Source: Lachnospiraceae bacterium | GTDB taxonomy: Bacteria; Bacillota_A; Clostridia; Lachnospirales; Lachnospiraceae | Length of the DNA stretch: 6,037 nt | Direction of reading: 5' to 3' | Assembly: GCA_003446335.1 (NCBI GenBank) | Contig: DMAZ01000183.1 | Location: 1-6,037 of the forward strand | Part shown: positions 1-6,037 of the stretch, piece by piece | How the letters are laid out: the number at the start of each line of letters is the position of its first letter | Numbering within the stretch: position 1 is the first letter of the stretch | Notes under the pieces: generated by a model | What the model was told of the DNA's origin: nothing | The model's input: only the letters and a program-made list of their open reading frames with translations | Databases searched by the model: none | Program-made: the position numbers and the translations under genes

Positions 1-360
1 CTGAACTATTATGGTCAGATGATGGCGATGAAGTACCCGTTCATGCAGATGAAGAACGGAACCTCGGAGGAACTTTGCAGCTCTGACAGTGCGGGGACGG
101 CGGAGAATGTCGAAAAATATGAAATATGCGGGTCTCTCTGTACGGTCAGTGATGTGATAATAAGACAGGTTCCACTTGAAAATCCGGAAACAGGCGATAT
201 ACTTGTCTTTGAGCGGACGGGAGCCTATTCGGTAACGGAAGGTATCAGCCTTTTCCTGAGCCGTGACCTTCCCCGGATCTATGTTAAGAGCGGGGAGAAA
301 TTGACATTAATAAGAGAACAGATCAGAACGGAGGAAGTAAATTATGGAAGAACTTATTGA
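1..360 (+). CDS. PLP-dependent decarboxylase (DapDC/BtrK-like fold-type III), C-terminal part
   Basis: The reading frame is open from the first base, so this is the last 119 residues of a gene that begins outside the window; the internal ATGs near base 19 are not starts. The visible part matches the C-terminal beta domain of fold-type III PLP decarboxylases (diaminopimelate, ornithine and BtrK-type). CGSLCTVSDV (bases 127-156) corresponds to the family's C-x-S-x-D segment, with the catalytic cysteine at 139-141. GDILVFERTGAY (193-228) corresponds to the GD...GAY segment that contacts PLP. TEGISLFLSRDLP follows in place of the usual MxSNYN. Alanine racemases use a tyrosine at this domain and lack the cysteine motif, so decarboxylase fits better. 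The stop overlaps the carrier-protein gene by 17 bases, implying translational coupling. Substrate cannot be read from this fragment. A ligand that is carrier-bound, as for BtrK, is an inference from the neighbour. Family call is fairly sure; substrate is open. Confidence 0.75.
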   Translation: MNYYGQMMAMKYPFMQMKNGTSEELCSSDSAGTAENVEKYEICGSLCTVSDVIIRQVPLENPETGDILVFERTGAYSVTEGISLFLSRDLPRIYVKSGEKLTLIREQIRTEEVNYGRTY

Positions 361-568
361 GATCCTTGAAGATATTCAACCGGATGCGGACTATGAGACA
401 TGTGAGACATTGATCGACGATGGGATCCTGGACTCTTTTGCAATCCTCTCCATTATTACGGAGCTGCAGGATGAGTATGATATCCGCATTACACCGGCCG
501 AGATCGTACCGGCCAACTTTAATTCTGCAAAGGCCATTTATGCAATGGTAAAGAGGCTGCAGGGCTGA
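344..568 (+). CDS. Acyl carrier protein (DltC/BtrI-like, phosphopantetheine-binding)
   Basis: A 74-residue protein of the carrier-protein size class (about 75-85 residues). The 4'-phosphopantetheine attachment site is Ser31 in DDGILDSFAIL, at the start of the predicted helix 2. The protein is strongly acidic, with about 17 Asp/Glu against 4 Lys/Arg, typical of carriers. The C-terminal part (NFNSAKAIYAMVKRL) resembles the last helix of DltC and D-alanyl/aminoacyl carriers. The start ATG is preceded by GGAGGA at 330-335 with an 8-base spacing, inside the end of the upstream gene, which it overlaps by 17 bases. The MBOAT gene follows after 25 bases. It would carry the acyl or aminoacyl group as a thioester in the cytoplasm and present it to the MBOAT. 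The loading enzyme is not in the window. D-alanine, another amino acid or a decarboxylated amino acid are all possible cargo. Confidence 0.88.
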   Translation: MEELIEILEDIQPDADYETCETLIDDGILDSFAILSIITELQDEYDIRITPAEIVPANFNSAKAIYAMVKRLQG

Positions 569-593
569 ATCCAGTTAGAAAGGTAATTTCCGG

Positions 594-2081
594 ATGTCAT
601 TTGTATCAACAGCATTTCTTGCATTTGTGATCCTCTGCACAGCAGGGTATTATCTGATTCCGAAAAAGTATCAGTGGTGTTGGCTTCTGGCTTTTTCCTA
701 TATCTATTATCTGGCAGCCGGACCGGGATATATCATATTTCTTCTGTTCTCGACGGTGATCACCTTCATCGGGGGGCTTCGCGCGGAACAGGGGTCGAAG
801 GCAGCGGTACCGATTGTACTGCTGCTTGATTTTGGTGCGCTTGCGGTAATCAAGTACACCAATTTTTTTGCCGGTACCTTCGCGGGGATACTCGGTTTCG
901 AATTCCATGAACTGGATATCCTTCTGCCTCTGGGCATATCTTTTTATACGTTCCAGACAGCCGGCTATCTTCTGGATGTTCACTGGAAAAGGTGTAAGGC
1001 AGAGCATAATTTTCTGCATTTTGCTCTTTTCGTATCTTTCTTTCCCCAGATCATGCAGGGACCGATTTCAAGATACAGCCAGCTGGCAGGCCAGCTCTTT
1101 GAGGAACATTCCCTCGACTTGAAACGCATAGAGAGCGGGCTCTATCGTATCGCATGGGGATTTTTCAAAAAAATGGTCATAGCGGATAATGCCGCGCTCT
1201 ATGTCAGTTCCATCTTTGACAACTATATGACCATGAGAGGGTACGGCGTACTGGGGGTTCTTATGTACAGCGCTCAGCTCTATGCCGATTTCTCAGGCGG
1301 TATCGATATTGTAATAGGAATCGCGGAATGTCTGGGGATTACGCTCGCTGAGAATTTCCGGCAGCCTTTCTTTGCTGTTTCCATCAGTGATTTCTGGCAC
1401 AGATGGCATATCACGCTGGGGACCTGGATGAAAGATTACGTATTTTATCCTGTTTCCCTGTCAAAATGGATGGGAAATTTCGGAAAATGGTGCCGTAAGC
1501 ATTTAGGGAAGGACATCGGCCGCGCCATGCCGATCTGCGTGGGCAACATTATTGTCTTTCTGGTCGTCGGTGTGTGGCACGGACCGGCCTGGCATTATAT
1601 CGTATACGGCCTCTACAACGGTCTGATCATCGGTATCTCCGGTCTGCTGGCAAAGAATTACAGGAGCTGGAAAAAGAAGCTGAAGATCAATGATAAAGGA
1701 AAAGGCTTCAAACTGTTCCAGATCGTGCGCACATTCATACTGGTCAATATCAGCTGGTATCTGGACTGCTCCGGCAGTGTAGGGCAGGCTTTTATGATGT
1801 TCAGGGACAGTATACTTCGATTCAGGATTTCCGGTGAGGTCATTGATACATTTTATACGTGGTCAGGCTCACAGGGCGTAACGCTGGCGTGCATTATTTT
1901 CGGATGTGCCATAGTGTTCACCCACAGCATTATGAAAGAGAGGGGTATGGATGTACGGGCTGAGCTCCTGGCAAAGCCGGTCTACGTTCGATGTGCGGTT
2001 CTTTTTCTGCTGCTCATCAGCCTTGTTCTGATCGGCAACCAGCCGCTGTCCGTGGGAGGATTTATATATGCGAATTTCTAA
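594..2081 (+). CDS. MBOAT-family O-acyltransferase (DltB/AlgI/PatA-like)
   Basis: A 495-residue polytopic membrane protein, AlgI/PatA-like in length (DltB is shorter, near 400). Hydrophobic segments lie near residues 2-22, 31-62, 71-90, 140-155, 315-350, 376-391, 427-446 and 466-484. Family signatures occur in order: LPLGISFYTFQ (111-121), QGPISRY (155-161), YADFSGGIDI (230-239), DFWHRWHITLGTW (266-278), and GVWHGPAWHY (326-335) with the expected catalytic His329 in the membrane. Such proteins pass an acyl group from a cytoplasmic donor across the membrane to an acceptor. The gene lies between a carrier protein and an SGNH-like protein, the Dlt/Alg/Pat arrangement, so the carrier is the likely donor. 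The C-terminus is FIYANF (490-495), resembling the DltX-type motif whose tyrosine is acylated. The start at 594 is supported by GAAAGG at 578-583, 10 bases upstream. The 3' end overlaps the next gene by 14 bases. Family call is secure; acyl group and acceptor are unknown. Confidence 0.95.
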   Translation: MSFVSTAFLAFVILCTAGYYLIPKKYQWCWLLAFSYIYYLAAGPGYIIFLLFSTVITFIGGLRAEQGSKAAVPIVLLLDFGALAVIKYTNFFAGTFAGILGFEFHELDILLPLGISFYTFQTAGYLLDVHWKRCKAEHNFLHFALFVSFFPQIMQGPISRYSQLAGQLFEEHSLDLKRIESGLYRIAWGFFKKMVIADNAALYVSSIFDNYMTMRGYGVLGVLMYSAQLYADFSGGIDIVIGIAECLGITLAENFRQPFFAVSISDFWHRWHITLGTWMKDYVFYPVSLSKWMGNFGKWCRKHLGKDIGRAMPICVGNIIVFLVVGVWHGPAWHYIVYGLYNGLIIGISGLLAKNYRSWKKKLKINDKGKGFKLFQIVRTFILVNISWYLDCSGSVGQAFMMFRDSILRFRISGEVIDTFYTWSGSQGVTLACIIFGCAIVFTHSIMKERGMDVRAELLAKPVYVRCAVLFLLLISLVLIGNQPLSVGGFIYANF

Positions 2082-3036
2082 GGGGCGCATAATTTGCACA
2101 ATTGCGGCATTTTTCGCAGTGCTGACAGCCTTCAATATGGTCATGAATTATCTTCTGATTCCATATTCCTTCACGCGGATGAAGGTACATTATCTGGAGA
2201 CGGAGACCTGCGATGACCTGATTCTCGGTTCTTCACATGCGGGAACCAATATAGATGCCTCACTTCTTGAAAGCGTTACAGGACGAAAGACTTTCAATGC
2301 GGCCCAGGGGGAACAGTATCCTGTGGACAGTTTCTATCTTCTTAAAGATGCCGCCATCGACCATAAACCGAAACGCGTACTATACGAATTCGATCCGACT
2401 TACTGGCTCGTTTCGCAGGAAATTGACTCAGCCTATGCGGGAATGTTCTATGAAATGCGCATGTCGCCGGTCAAACTACAGTATTTCTTCGATAAAATGT
2501 GGTCGGCGGATTTCCGTACGTGGACAGCACCCTGGTATTTTTACCGCAGACAGATAGGGGATATTTCGGCAAATCTTTATACGAAAAAGACGGATAACTA
2601 CAAGAACTACGGGACGGCTACATTTGATTCTGATACCCAGACTGTTCGGGAGGATGGTTTTATTGCTGTCAAACCGGGCAGATGGGAGGACGAGATCACC
2701 GTTCGCGAATGGAGCGATGAGACAATTCAGAAAGATGATGAGAGGTTCTTTGAACGAATCGCCAAGTTCTGCCGTCAGGAGGGAATTGAACTGGTCGTCG
2801 TGACGACGCCCGTTCCCGCGGGGACTTATGAAGCGGGCAGGGAGAACTTTGATGCGGCTGCCGCCCATATGAAGGACCTGGCGGAAAAATACGGCTTTGA
2901 GTATCTTTGTTACAACGGTGATGCCCTGCAGGATAAGAGTTTGACGGGAGAGGAGCAGTATGCGGACTGGGACGGACATATGTATGAGGAGGCTGCGGAC
3001 CGGTTCACGGAGCTTCTTGCCAAAGATTTGATCTGA
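2068..3036 (+). CDS. Membrane-anchored SGNH-like protein (DltD-like partner of MBOAT)
   Basis: A 322-residue protein with one N-terminal hydrophobic segment (about residues 8-30) after a basic MRISKGR start. This fits an uncleaved anchor with the rest outside the cell. DDLILGSSHAGTNID (49-63) matches SGNH/GDSL block I, Ser56 being the likely nucleophile in GSSH. A Rossmann-like strand ELVVVTTPVP (241-250) follows, and near the C-terminus WDGHM (301-305) could supply the Asp/His pair, with His304 as candidate base. SGNH proteins paired with MBOATs (DltD, AlgJ/AlgX type) complete acyl transfer to the extracellular polymer. This one is not close enough to DltD for me to give that symbol. GGGAGGA at 2054-2060, seven bases before the ATG, sits inside the MBOAT gene, so translation is probably coupled. 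It is the last gene of the operon, with a terminator five bases after its stop. SGNH assignment rests on block I and the C-terminal histidine; the middle (120-230) is unfamiliar. Confidence 0.75.
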   Translation: MRISKGRIICTIAAFFAVLTAFNMVMNYLLIPYSFTRMKVHYLETETCDDLILGSSHAGTNIDASLLESVTGRKTFNAAQGEQYPVDSFYLLKDAAIDHKPKRVLYEFDPTYWLVSQEIDSAYAGMFYEMRMSPVKLQYFFDKMWSADFRTWTAPWYFYRRQIGDISANLYTKKTDNYKNYGTATFDSDTQTVREDGFIAVKPGRWEDEITVREWSDETIQKDDERFFERIAKFCRQEGIELVVVTTPVPAGTYEAGRENFDAAAAHMKDLAEKYGFEYLCYNGDALQDKSLTGEEQYADWDGHMYEEAADRFTELLAKDLI

Positions 3037-3040
3037 CAGA

Positions 3041-3065
3041 AACGGCGCGGTCGCGCCGTTTTTTT
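3041..3065 (+). terminator. Rho-independent terminator of the Dlt-like operon
   Basis: A GC-rich perfect stem AACGGCGC / GCGCCGTT (3041-3048 and 3053-3060) closes a GGTC tetraloop. The stem's last two T residues run on into five more, giving seven U in the transcript (3059-3065). It begins four bases after the stop of the SGNH-like gene. It is the strongest terminator in the window and sets the 3' boundary of the operon. The reverse strand lacks a long T run after the stem, so it should mainly act in the forward direction. Confidence 0.93.
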
Positions 3066-3274: not shown

Positions 3275-3697
3275 ATGAGTAAAGTAGCGATTATTTACTA
3301 CAGTCAGACCGGCAACACGAAAGCAATGGCGGAAGGAATCGCGGAAGGTGTCCGCGCAAATGGCGGCGAAGCCACTCTTTATATTCCTCAGGAAGTAAAA
3401 CCGTACATGGTCCGGGACTGCAGCGCAATTGCTCTCGGATGTCCGGCGATGCGATTTGAACAGCTGGATGATGATATTTTCGAGCCTGCCTACGAAGCGA
3501 TCAAACCGGAATTCCCCGGCAAAAAAATAGCGCTGTTCGGATCTTACGGATGGGGCGGCGGAGAATGGATGCGCACCTGGGAAGACGAGATTCAGAAAGA
3601 GGGCATTCAGCTCGCTGCCGAGAGTGTGATCTGCTGCGAGACCCCGAACAGCGAGGTCATGGAAGAGTGCAGACAGCTTGGCAGAAAACTGAGCTGA
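3275..3697 (+). CDS. Short-chain flavodoxin
   Basis: A 140-residue cytoplasmic FMN electron carrier, the normal length for short-chain flavodoxins. The FMN phosphate loop is SQTGNT (residues 10-15) after the first strand VAIIYY. The 50s loop is LGCPAMRFEQL (54-64), and the 90s loop GSYGWGGGEWMRTWED (89-104) carries the aromatic Tyr91/Trp93 that stack on the isoalloxazine ring. It carries low-potential electrons, often replacing ferredoxin when iron is scarce; its partner cannot be told from here. It stands alone after a terminator, so it is likely monocistronic. Its stop lies three bases from the stop of the convergent TetR-family gene. I see no link in the sequence to the Dlt-like operon. 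Function is secure at family level. Confidence 0.95.
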   Translation: MSKVAIIYYSQTGNTKAMAEGIAEGVRANGGEATLYIPQEVKPYMVRDCSAIALGCPAMRFEQLDDDIFEPAYEAIKPEFPGKKIALFGSYGWGGGEWMRTWEDEIQKEGIQLAAESVICCETPNSEVMEECRQLGRKLS

Positions 3698-3710
3698 ACA
3701 TTATTTTTTT
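3674..3710 (+). terminator. Possible weak terminator at the end of the flavodoxin gene
   Basis: An 8-bp stem CAGCTTGG / CTGAGCTG including two G-U pairs (3674-3681 and 3689-3696) overlaps the last codons of the flavodoxin gene. A T7 run follows at 3704-3710. The seven-base gap between stem and T run is longer than in a good intrinsic terminator, so this is tentative. The T run itself lies in the 3' end of the convergent tetR-family gene. Confidence 0.3.
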
Positions 3711-4315
3711 GATGGTATTATGACCGTTCTGTTAAGTCCGTAGAGGGTCAGGCTGCCGGCAAGATCTGTGAATTCATCCAGAGAAATGTCACCCGGTTCG
3801 GCAATCCAGCAGGATACCATGGAAAGAATTCCGGCCGCGACGTATTGGGACATGAGCGTGAGTCTTGCAAGTTCATGGTGATCGTTTATTTCTACTTCTA
3901 CCTGGGACATAATGATGTCCACGACAAGCGCCTGGACTTTTCCGAGAAGGTGGGCCAGCTGCCCGCACTGATTCAGCAGGTGATAAACTTCAAAGTCATC
4001 CCTTACCAGCTGATTGAACTTGTCAAAGAAATCCCGGGCGGAAAATGTTGTTGACTTTAAATTCAATGTTGAAAAGAGCGGTCTGAATTTGTCAATGAGT
4101 TCCGTTTCAATTTCTTCCAGAAGGTCTTCTACTCCGTCATAGTAAGTGTAGAAGGTCTTACGATTGATTCCGGCTTCATTTGCAATATCCGTGATGGTGA
4201 TTTTCCCGTAGTCTTTTTTCTGAAGTTCCGCGAAGAAAGCTTCACGGATTGCTTTTTTGGATCGGATGACACGTTTGTCCTGATAGTTTGAGCTGTCTGA
4301 ATACGTTCTGTTCAT
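3701..4315 (-). CDS. TetR/AcrR-family transcriptional regulator
   Basis: A 204-residue protein of normal TetR-family length. The N-terminal DNA-binding domain spans about residues 18-62. RSKKAIREAFFAELQ forms helix 1, and ITITDIANEAGINRKTFYTYY (39-59) is a textbook TetR helix-turn-helix with recognition helix NRKTFYTYY. The C-terminal domain (65-204) is all-helical and variable, as expected for ligand binding and dimerisation; it resembles the DhaS-like subgroup, but the ligand cannot be inferred. The ATG at 4315 has a modest ribosome site, GGGTG, seven bases upstream (plus-strand 4323-4327). It is convergent with the flavodoxin gene (three-base gap) and divergent from the DegV-family gene. 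A perfect inverted repeat 66 bases upstream of the start is a candidate operator, suggesting autoregulation. Whether it controls degV-guaA or the flavodoxin gene is unresolved. Confidence 0.93.
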   Translation of the reverse strand: MNRTYSDSSNYQDKRVIRSKKAIREAFFAELQKKDYGKITITDIANEAGINRKTFYTYYDGVEDLLEEIETELIDKFRPLFSTLNLKSTTFSARDFFDKFNQLVRDDFEVYHLLNQCGQLAHLLGKVQALVVDIIMSQVEVEINDHHELARLTLMSQYVAAGILSMVSCWIAEPGDISLDEFTDLAGSLTLYGLNRTVIIPSKK

Positions 4316-4463: not shown

Positions 4464-4498
4464 GAGTCTGTTTCTGAAAAGCAACAGATGTTACTTAC

Positions 4499-4506
4499 AG
4501 GGAGGT
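4499..4506 (+). promoter_or_regulatory. Ribosome binding site deciding the DegV start
   Basis: AGGGAGGT ends five bases before the ATG at 4512. An in-frame ATG at 4488 would place this ribosome site inside the coding sequence and would add eight residues ahead of the conserved N-terminal strand. The start at 4512 is therefore preferred. Confidence 0.88.
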
Positions 4507-4511
4507 ATTTC

Positions 4512-5399
4512 ATGAATAATTATGTGATTTTTACAGATGCGTCAGCTGACGTTGACAGAAAATACGTGGCTGCTCACGATATACGTTTCGTGCCTATGCA
4601 TTATACACTTGGAGCAGAGGACCGTACGACGATGGGACCGGAGAAGGAAGATCTTCTTTCAGCCTTTTACAACGGCCAGCGCGGCGGTGACCTCACACAG
4701 ACGAGTCAGATCGCGCCGCAGGTCTATATCGACCATTTTGAGCCGGAACTGAAGGAAGGACGGGATATCATCTATCTTTCCCTTTCCAGCGGAATAACCA
4801 AGACTTTTGACAGTGTGCAGATCGCGAGAGCAGCGATGGAAGAAAAATATCCGGATGCGCATATTTATCCTGTCGATACACTCGGTGCCGCAGGAAGTAT
4901 GGGAATTATGGTCGAGCGGGCAGCCGATAACCGTGAGGCCGGGATGGATATCGAAGCAAATGTCGCTGATCTTGAAGCGCGGTCTCATGAGAGCATTATT
5001 CTCTTAATGGTCGATGATCTCATGTACCTGAAAAGAGGAGGACGTCTTCCGGCATCTTCGGCTGTACTCGGAACGGTCCTCGGGGTAAAACCGATCATGT
5101 TCCTGGAACCGCAGGGCAAATTGCTTCCCATAACGAAAAAGAGGGGAGAAAAGATTGCTCTGAAGGAAATGCTGCGGCTGTATTTTGCAACCAGAAAGAA
5201 GGACATAAGCAATCGTATTTATATTTCCCACGGAGACTGTGAGGATCGCGTTAAAAATCTTTCCCGGATGATCCATGAGGTCGATCCGGATGTAGATATC
5301 GTTCCTGTCATGATGAGCCCGATCATAGGTGCTCATACAGGTCCCGGTATGATTTCAATATGCTATTTCGGAGATAAGGATCATATGCTGGACAATTAA
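4512..5399 (+). CDS. DegV-family fatty-acid-binding protein (FakB-like)
   Basis: A 295-residue cytoplasmic protein, within the usual 275-295 range of DegV proteins. Family motifs appear in order: FTDASADV (7-14), the TQTSQI loop (62-67), LSLSSGITKTFDS (89-101) with the fatty-acid-carboxylate serine in SSG, VDTLGAAGSMG (121-131), LMYLKRGGRLP (170-180), and IGAHTGPGM (272-280) with the conserved histidine. FakB-type members bind a fatty acid and present it to the FakA kinase for phosphorylation and incorporation into phospholipid. No fakA is in the window, and many genomes carry several DegV paralogues of unknown ligand. A strong promoter lies 49 bases upstream of the start, and guaA begins 18 bases after the stop. 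The divergent TetR-family gene could regulate it, though the candidate operator is upstream of the promoter core. Family is secure; ligand unknown. Confidence 0.95.
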   Translation: MNNYVIFTDASADVDRKYVAAHDIRFVPMHYTLGAEDRTTMGPEKEDLLSAFYNGQRGGDLTQTSQIAPQVYIDHFEPELKEGRDIIYLSLSSGITKTFDSVQIARAAMEEKYPDAHIYPVDTLGAAGSMGIMVERAADNREAGMDIEANVADLEARSHESIILLMVDDLMYLKRGGRLPASSAVLGTVLGVKPIMFLEPQGKLLPITKKRGEKIALKEMLRLYFATRKKDISNRIYISHGDCEDRVKNLSRMIHEVDPDVDIVPVMMSPIIGAHTGPGMISICYFGDKDHMLDN

Positions 5400-5417: not shown

Positions 5418-6037
5418 ATGAACGAACTGGTAGTAGTTATTGATTTCGGCGGACAGTATAATCAGCTTGTTGCCCGGCGTGTGAGAGAGAATAATGTGTA
5501 CTGTGAAATCTATTCCTACAGAACACCGCTTCATGAAATTCTGGCCAGACATCCAATGGGAATTATCCTGACGGGAGGTCCGAGCAGTGTCTATGAGGAG
5601 AATGCGGCTACCTGCACAGCTGAACTTTTTGAGGCCGGGATCCCCGTGCTTGGATTATGTTATGGGGCGCAGCTGATGAGCTATGTGCTCGGGGGAGAGG
5701 TCAGGCGTGCTGCGGACCGCGAATATGGCAAGACCGAGACGATATTTGACACGACTTCCCCACTCTTTGAGGGTATTCCGGACAAGAGTATTGTATGGAT
5801 GAGCCATTTTGATTACATCTCAAAACTCGCGCCGGGCTTTGAGAGCATCGCTCACACGGCATCTACGCCTGTGGCGGCAGCACAGAACAGGGAAAGAAAG
5901 CTGTATGCGATCCAGTTCCATCCGGAGGTACTCCATACGGAGTACGGGAAGGAGATTCTCTTCAATTTTGTGCGAAATATATGCGGGTGCCGCGGTGACT
6001 GGAAGATGGACTCTTTTGTGGAGAGCCAGATCAGACA
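5418..6037 (+). CDS. guaA: GMP synthase (glutamine-hydrolysing), N-terminal part
   Basis: The gene runs off the right edge after 206 codons, of about 510-525 expected. It catalyses XMP + ATP + glutamine to GMP, the last step of guanine nucleotide synthesis. The visible part is the class I glutamine amidotransferase domain. Strand VVVIDFGGQYNQL (5-17) is followed by the oxyanion region TGGPSSV (52-58), the nucleophile elbow GLCYGAQL with Cys81, MSHFD (128-132), and FHPEV with His168 and Glu170 completing the triad. WKMDSF...IR (195-206) begins the linker to the ATP-pyrophosphatase domain, which lies outside the window, so its integrity cannot be judged. AAAGGAG (5406-5412), five bases before the ATG, supports the start. 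The 18-base gap to the DegV-family gene and absence of a terminator suggest co-transcription. I see no purine riboswitch in the gap or in the leader of the operon. Confidence 0.95.
   Translation, partial: MNELVVVIDFGGQYNQLVARRVRENNVYCEIYSYRTPLHEILARHPMGIILTGGPSSVYEENAATCTAELFEAGIPVLGLCYGAQLMSYVLGGEVRRAADREYGKTETIFDTTSPLFEGIPDKSIVWMSHFDYISKLAPGFESIAHTASTPVAAAQNRERKLYAIQFHPEVLHTEYGKEILFNFVRNICGCRGDWKMDSFVESQIR

Follow-up and report, generated by a model that had tools for sequence, protein, structure and literature searches.

The DNA analyzed here, referred to below as the window, is a stretch of 6,037 nucleotides from a Lachnospiraceae bacterium (contig DMAZ01000183.1 of assembly GCA_003446335.1, forward strand). 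It begins with what is probably the 3′ end of a five-gene operon for envelope aminoacylation, a likely new relative of the Gram-positive cell-wall D-alanine pathway. The genes present are, in order, the last part of a pyridoxal phosphate (PLP) decarboxylase (DC; C-terminal 119 residues), a carrier protein (ACP), an acyltransferase of the MBOAT family, and an SGNH-family protein, followed by a strong terminator; the complete order, with an adenylation enzyme (A) at its head, would be A-DC-ACP-MBOAT-SGNH. In the scheme that we infer for substrate, reaction order, product, and acceptor, A would activate an acidic amino acid (aspartate, through its β-carboxyl group, is the likeliest) and load it onto the carrier; DC would strip the α-carboxyl group from the carrier-bound residue, in the manner of BtrK and VinO, so that the thioester of an amine-bearing acyl group remains, β-alanyl being the likeliest; MBOAT would pass this group to the Tyr in the FIYANF motif at its C terminus; and from there the SGNH protein would transfer it to a surface-polysaccharide hydroxyl, making the polymer more positively charged. 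We assign this reading a probability of about 0.62.

We found two mechanisms only separately: decarboxylation of a carrier-bound amino acid, which occurs in antibiotic and lipopeptide biosynthesis, and export of an acyl group by an MBOAT-SGNH pair, as for D-alanine and acetate. The operon unites them, and a literature search, mostly confined to journals outside subscription, returned no paper pairing an MBOAT with such a decarboxylase. If the scheme is correct, about one-fifth of the sampled genomes (59 of 299) from the Lachnospiraceae, a major gut family, would specify a cationic surface decoration that is not based on D-alanine, with a bearing on antimicrobial-peptide tolerance and host recognition. 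The operon also makes testable which groups besides D-alanine and acetate MBOAT-SGNH pairs transfer.

Gene content and order

The enzyme classes, the conserved catalytic residues, and the linkage of the genes are evident from sequence comparison. An earlier note, made from the window alone, described a decarboxylase-carrier-MBOAT-SGNH operon with overlaps of 17 and 14 bases, a 25-base gap, and one terminator, a description that our analysis bears out. It also placed the loading enzyme directly upstream. The window itself contains no A gene; in its relatives, a DltA-like adenylation enzyme of about 500 residues does lie upstream of DC, and it is of the DltA/nonribosomal peptide synthetase type, not an ATP-grasp loader in the style of butirosin biosynthesis. 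The window MBOAT shares 87% identity with the protein from locus L003 and groups with the MBOATs of L001, L002, and L003 (support 100); A is directly upstream of DC in all three.

A scan of genome contigs with an alignment of the SGNH protein yielded 32 loci, mostly from Lachnospiraceae and otherwise from other Clostridia/Bacillota. L017 comes from Anaerosacchariphilus polymeriproducens and L018 from Anaerobium acetethylicum, both of them cultured. The order A-DC-ACP-MBOAT-SGNH is found in 24 of them, and several of the rest are cut by contig ends. When a DC alignment was searched against 299 Lachnospiraceae genomes (threshold, 1e-40 or better), DC was found in 59; neighborhoods were scored by profiles, and the second DC of genome G120 (L055) was left out, reducing 60 DC genes to 59. 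Within about 7 kb of DC, we found A in 56, ACP in 56, MBOAT in 46, SGNH in 46, and all four in 42, counts that include contig edges, so that genes scored as absent may lie past a contig end. The co-occurrence that the earlier note looked to as support is thus seen in the family, in several gene orders. Among 90 loci read (32 + 58), the order of the window occurs in 52 and MBOAT-SGNH-A-DC-ACP in 4, with DC-A-ACP-MBOAT-SGNH, A-ACP-DC-MBOAT-SGNH, SGNH-A-ACP-DC-MBOAT, and others represented by single cases. That gene content is kept despite rearrangement is good evidence for one pathway. We checked 12 genomes with incomplete, split, or two-strand sets; an SGNH gene of the family is found elsewhere at more than 80 bits in six of these, only weakly in four, and not in the other two.

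Proposed loading and decarboxylation on the carrier

Several observations separate DC from LysA. In LysA-type proteins, the loop with the catalytic Cys carries Glu (12 of 12 read) at a position where ornithine decarboxylase has Asp, and this Glu or Asp is thought to bind a distal ammonium group; in 83 loops found by pattern among 85 operon DCs examined, the residue is Thr (78) or Ser (5). In a tree of 31 of the 85 DCs, constructed without VinO and BolN, the operon proteins form one clade (SH-aLRT 95) and LysA-type proteins encoded in the same genomes form another (97), with BtrK falling weakly on the LysA side among long branches. Three operon DCs score 138-176 bits against TIGR01048, for which the cut-off is 297.9, and the fragment in the window gives C-terminal matches to TIGR01048 and TIGR03099 that are far under cut-off. 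A separate LysA-type gene is present in 29 of the 31 genomes behind the SGNH-alignment scan; 28 of these 29 score 255-284 bits, themselves under 297.9, and only that of G030 passes. The distinct clade, the Thr/Ser loop, the low TIGR01048 scores, and the separate LysA-type gene led us to reject a LysA identity, in line with the earlier note, and none of ten flanking genes profiled is a lysine gene.

Database names point in another direction. Both of the named hits among the 120 listed are called "MAG: alanine racemase" in the source, and the shared barrel domain PF01168 (Ala_racemase_N) is listed for most of the 120 hits and exceeds its cut-off in L100. The PLP-barrel fold is also common to both kinds of enzyme, and on these grounds the PLP enzyme might be an amino-acid racemase feeding D-alanylation. 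DC, however, has the decarboxylase sheet PF00278, the L001 protein matches decarboxylase models (TIGR03099, 3e-49; TIGR01048, 3e-40), and none of three operon DCs matches an NCBIfam racemase model at 1e-5; we rejected alanine racemase as its identity. The conserved decarboxylase-type Cys loop, together with an A pocket unlike that of DltA (see below), also makes a racemase feeding D-alanylation very improbable.

Compared with solved structures, the DC profile matches BtrK best (170 bits, 7.5e-49), ahead of SbnH (154) and the best diaminopimelate decarboxylase (147). The fold, the Cys-loop Thr, and a gene position beside carrier and loader are features of BtrK/VinO-type enzymes, and by analogy DC would be an enzyme of this type, acting on a carrier-bound amino acid. 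In this respect the operon resembles butirosin BtrJ-BtrI-BtrK, in which a glutamyl group is decarboxylated on the carrier; the loader differs, being an A-domain enzyme here and an ATP-grasp enzyme (BtrJ) in butirosin biosynthesis. The earlier note's analogy to BtrK holds for decarboxylation on the carrier, although VinN-VinL-VinO and BolO-BolC-BolN, which have an A-domain loader, fit better as precedents, favoring aspartate and β-alanine over glutamate and 4-aminobutyrate (GABA). In two reports (PMC11284099, PMC7756342), these systems likewise combine an A-domain, a stand-alone carrier, and a PLP decarboxylase, which together convert a dicarboxylic amino acid to a β-aminoacyl thioester. The conversion has been shown for Vin, in which VinO decarboxylates the carrier-bound group after loading by VinN, and is proposed for Bol. 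Its product serves in those pathways as a primer for polyketide or lipopeptide assembly, whereas the operon would couple it to MBOAT-SGNH export. An AMP ligase and a decarboxylase also occur together in the exosortase-A-associated families TIGR03098/TIGR03099, and of three operon DCs, two have TIGR03099 as their top NCBIfam model; however, DC scores 168-207 bits against a cut-off of 478 and A 184-194 (L031, 240) against 592, and no exosortase context was seen among the neighbors profiled.

The A proteins of L001, L017, L029, and L031 contain amino-acid adenylation domains and score 275-297 bits against the DltA model TIGR01734 (cut-off, 559.85). We read the ten-residue pocket code, by alignment to GrsA, in 80 A proteins, comprising 25 from loci of the SGNH-alignment scan and 55 from Lachnospiraceae neighborhoods. 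In most, it approximates DVK[I/T][L/M]S[L/V]CNK and differs from the D-alanine pocket of DltA proteins of the same family, DLMVLCTVxK, which has Met at position 239 (L168, over the cut-off, and L172, truncated at a contig end). At position 239, 74 of the 80 have Lys and 4 have Arg, the remaining two being L031 (His, without DC) and L128 (a distant A); where no DC neighbors A, Lys or Arg is found at 239 in 1 of 10 (L167; the ten are nine plus L031). Asp235, kept in 75 of the 80, is probably the counterpart of VinN Asp230, an equivalence of our own reading rather than of a residue-by-residue comparison; according to PMC11284099 and PMC7756342, VinN binds 3-methylaspartate via Asp230 and Ser299/Arg331 and activates the β-carboxyl group. 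Together, the conserved pocket cation and Asp235, the latter available to the amine, suggest that an acidic amino acid is loaded with both carboxylates in place, and since this matches the logic of VinN, we favor aspartate as the substrate and β-alanyl as the product. One locus weighs against this interpretation: in L169, the A next to a sister-type DC carries Tyr at 239. The A proteins of four loci, L105, L116, L120, and L123, have Ile235 and Arg239 and may, judging from these residues, take another substrate.

Those four proteins, without Asp235, could hold a more distant amine, and BtrK is the best structural match to DC; the same machine might then take glutamate through its γ-carboxyl group and export 4-aminobutyryl, as in butirosin biosynthesis. 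Yet GABA esters and thioesters cyclize easily, and no second ligase that protects the amine was recognized in the operon. Asp235, moreover, corresponds in our reading to the VinN residue that binds the amine of an aspartate-type substrate. We therefore consider GABA unlikely and retain the β-alanyl group.

DC could also work on a free amino acid (aspartate to β-alanine, for example, or diaminopimelate to lysine), the free product being loaded afterward. Its LysA-like fold is compatible with such an activity, and DC would adjoin the loader whichever step is first. Against this, the basic residue at 239 suggests that a second carboxylate is still present at loading, a LysA-type gene is encoded elsewhere, and the Glu or Asp of the Cys loop is absent. 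Vicenistatin biosynthesis, according to PMC11284099 and PMC7756342, requires the thioester before decarboxylation. Decarboxylation ahead of loading thus seems quite unlikely, and we prefer loading first.

Four loci have related but distinct arrangements. L031 (2988-7345) is an MBOAT-SGNH-ACP-A set without DC whose A pocket, DIHLMALFVK, differs from the rest, and from that pocket it probably transfers another amino acid. L167 (G017:C47, 4650-10861) has a second MBOAT-SGNH set, a Lys239-type A, and a formyltransferase-like gene; neither carrier nor decarboxylase was recognized at this locus. L169 (G019:C27, 428-12819) comprises four radical SAM genes, an NAD-synthase-like gene, a carrier, an adenylation enzyme, and a DC sister to the operon clade, and looks like a small-molecule pathway employing the same loading-decarboxylation trick. 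In L098 (5713-9057, minus strand), the DC frame continues into Ig-like and transglutaminase surface-type domains, 1114 residues in all, a fusion that, if real, would be unexpected in an enzyme of the cytosol.

Proposed export and the likely acceptor

The features of the MBOAT-SGNH acyl-Tyr shuttle are present: an MBOAT His, a C-terminal Tyr motif, and an SGNH partner. WHG occurs in all 75 MBOATs of relatives (proteins over 450 residues), and the C terminus reads Y..F or Y..Y in the same 75. The SGNH start codon (2068-2070) overlaps the Tyr-Ala codons of the shuttle motif (TATGCG, with Tyr at 2067-2069), and an ATG lies 14 bases before the MBOAT end in 60 of the 75, a count of ATG presence rather than of start use. 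In an alignment of 76 SGNH proteins, the catalytic residues are Ser in 74 (Cys in 2), His in 75, and Asp in 69. The protein has the DltD fold and the Ser-His residues and matches no NCBIfam model; because the scores of esterases and PatB are only slightly lower than that of DltD, the match indicates the SGNH fold and not DltD alone. The L030 operon (6893-10996) contains a pair of SGNH-family genes, one of which lies between DC and ACP, and L120 likewise has two.

With Dlt (DltX-A-B-C-D, teichoic-acid D-alanylation), the operon shares an adenylating loader, a small carrier, an MBOAT, a DltD-like SGNH fold, and the Tyr-shuttle logic. It differs in adding a PLP decarboxylase, in having A, carrier, and MBOAT proteins that fall under the curated Dlt cut-offs, and in its A pocket; on the last two grounds, plain D-alanylation was rejected. 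The shuttle motif, which Dlt carries on DltX, is fused to MBOAT, with no room between the window genes for a separate DltX microprotein, and the acceptor is likely a polysaccharide. PMC12148441 describes MBOAT/SGNH pathways other than Dlt as having no similar carrier and a motif fused to the MBOAT; the operon departs from that pattern in having both carrier and fused motif. Among them, PatA-PatB, which O-acetylates peptidoglycan, also has an MBOAT ending in FXYXXF and an SGNH partner, but PatA takes acetyl-CoA. The FIYANF of the window MBOAT is the same as in the Neisseria gonorrhoeae PatA peptide, which, once acetylated, donated acetyl to PatB (same source).

Separate MBOAT-SGNH pairs bear on the acceptor. 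Polysaccharide genes surround all six that were profiled (a set that excludes L016). The L147 pair lies between RmlA-B-D-C-type genes and glycosyltransferases; those of L149 and L152 adjoin Wzt-type ABC transporter genes (with glycosyltransferases also at L149); L148 adjoins an epimerase and a phosphomannomutase-type gene; and L151 and L153 have glycosyltransferases nearby. Some neighbors in L149, L151, and L152 have no Pfam match, and L150 has an SGNH gene without a recognized MBOAT. The MBOATs of these pairs fall among the operon MBOATs, L147 in a clade with support of 99 and the remaining five in a less well supported, mixed branch (94), and the pairs may use the carrier-loaded group. The genes beside them make a surface polysaccharide the likeliest acceptor, one that contains rhamnose in at least one genome. 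The Dlt-type envelope acylation proposed in the earlier note is supported by the conserved gene set and refined in its acceptor, a surface polysaccharide being more likely than teichoic acid.

A teichoic-acid acceptor, with the operon replacing Dlt, would suit an SGNH protein that folds like DltD. DltA is over its curated cut-off in only 1 of the 31 genomes (in G002, a DltA-type gene truncated at a contig end, L172, scores 362 bits), and given this scarcity the operon may often take the place of Dlt. The setting of the six separate pairs amid sugar-polymer genes argues otherwise, and we find teichoic acid a rather doubtful acceptor.

The ten profiled neighbors of intact operons gave no consistent clue to the acceptor; they are a Rex-like regulator, DUF2232, radical SAM, YdjC, PrmA, two response regulators, EamA, NadA, and a formyltransferase. 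Upstream of orphan A-DC-ACP sets are mostly housekeeping genes (adenylosuccinate synthetase in four). An OmpR-type response regulator is located no more than 200 bases downstream, on the same strand, at 11 of 86 DC loci (a raw count; L106, L109, L111, L125, and seven more), which recalls the control of dlt by envelope stress. We tentatively extend the scheme, as something possible rather than probable, to many Lachnospiraceae without canonical Dlt, in which a rhamnose-type wall polysaccharide would receive β-alanyl esters from on-carrier aspartate decarboxylation, sometimes under a two-component system; the operon would then represent a class of cationic envelope modification so far unrecognized, with an enzyme module of its own.

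Features of the window and downstream genes

Table 1. Coordinates of operon features within the window
Feature	Position	Strand	Basis
Fold-type III (alanine racemase fold) PLP decarboxylase, C-terminal 119 residues; remainder upstream of the window	1..360	+	PF00278 1.3e-7; aligned to full-length relatives
DC catalytic-Cys loop GSLCTVSD; Thr in place of the LysA Glu, as in BtrK and SbnH	130..153	+	
Stand-alone carrier protein, DltC-like, 74 residues	344..568	+	PP-binding 1.4e-3, slightly below cut-off; NF003464 (DltC) 38 bits versus cut-off of 68
Carrier Ser31 (LDSF), predicted phosphopantetheine site	434..436	+	Sequence; Ser in aligned relatives too
MBOAT acyltransferase, DltB-like, 495 residues, C-terminal shuttle motif	594..2081	+	Pfam MBOAT 1e-15; TIGR04091 (DltB) 174 bits versus cut-off of 375
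Conserved MBOAT His (VWHG)	1578..1580	+	WHG in relatives; role as in DltB/PatA (PMC12148441)
Tyr of acyl-shuttle motif FIYANF, MBOAT C terminus	2067..2069	+	Published motif FXYXXF (PMC12148441)
SGNH-fold acyltransferase, membrane-anchored, DltD-like, 322 residues	2068..3036	+	Fold match to DltD and SGNH esterases; N-terminal helix 2-30
SGNH predicted catalytic Ser56 (GSSH)	2233..2235	+	Alignment of relatives
SGNH predicted catalytic Asp300 and His304	2965..2979	+	Alignment of relatives
Intrinsic terminator, operon end	3038..3063	+	

The genes that follow are ordinary and apparently unrelated to the operon: a flavodoxin (3278-3697), a TetR-type regulator on the opposite strand (3701-4315), a DegV-family protein (4488-5399), and the start of GuaA (5418-6037).

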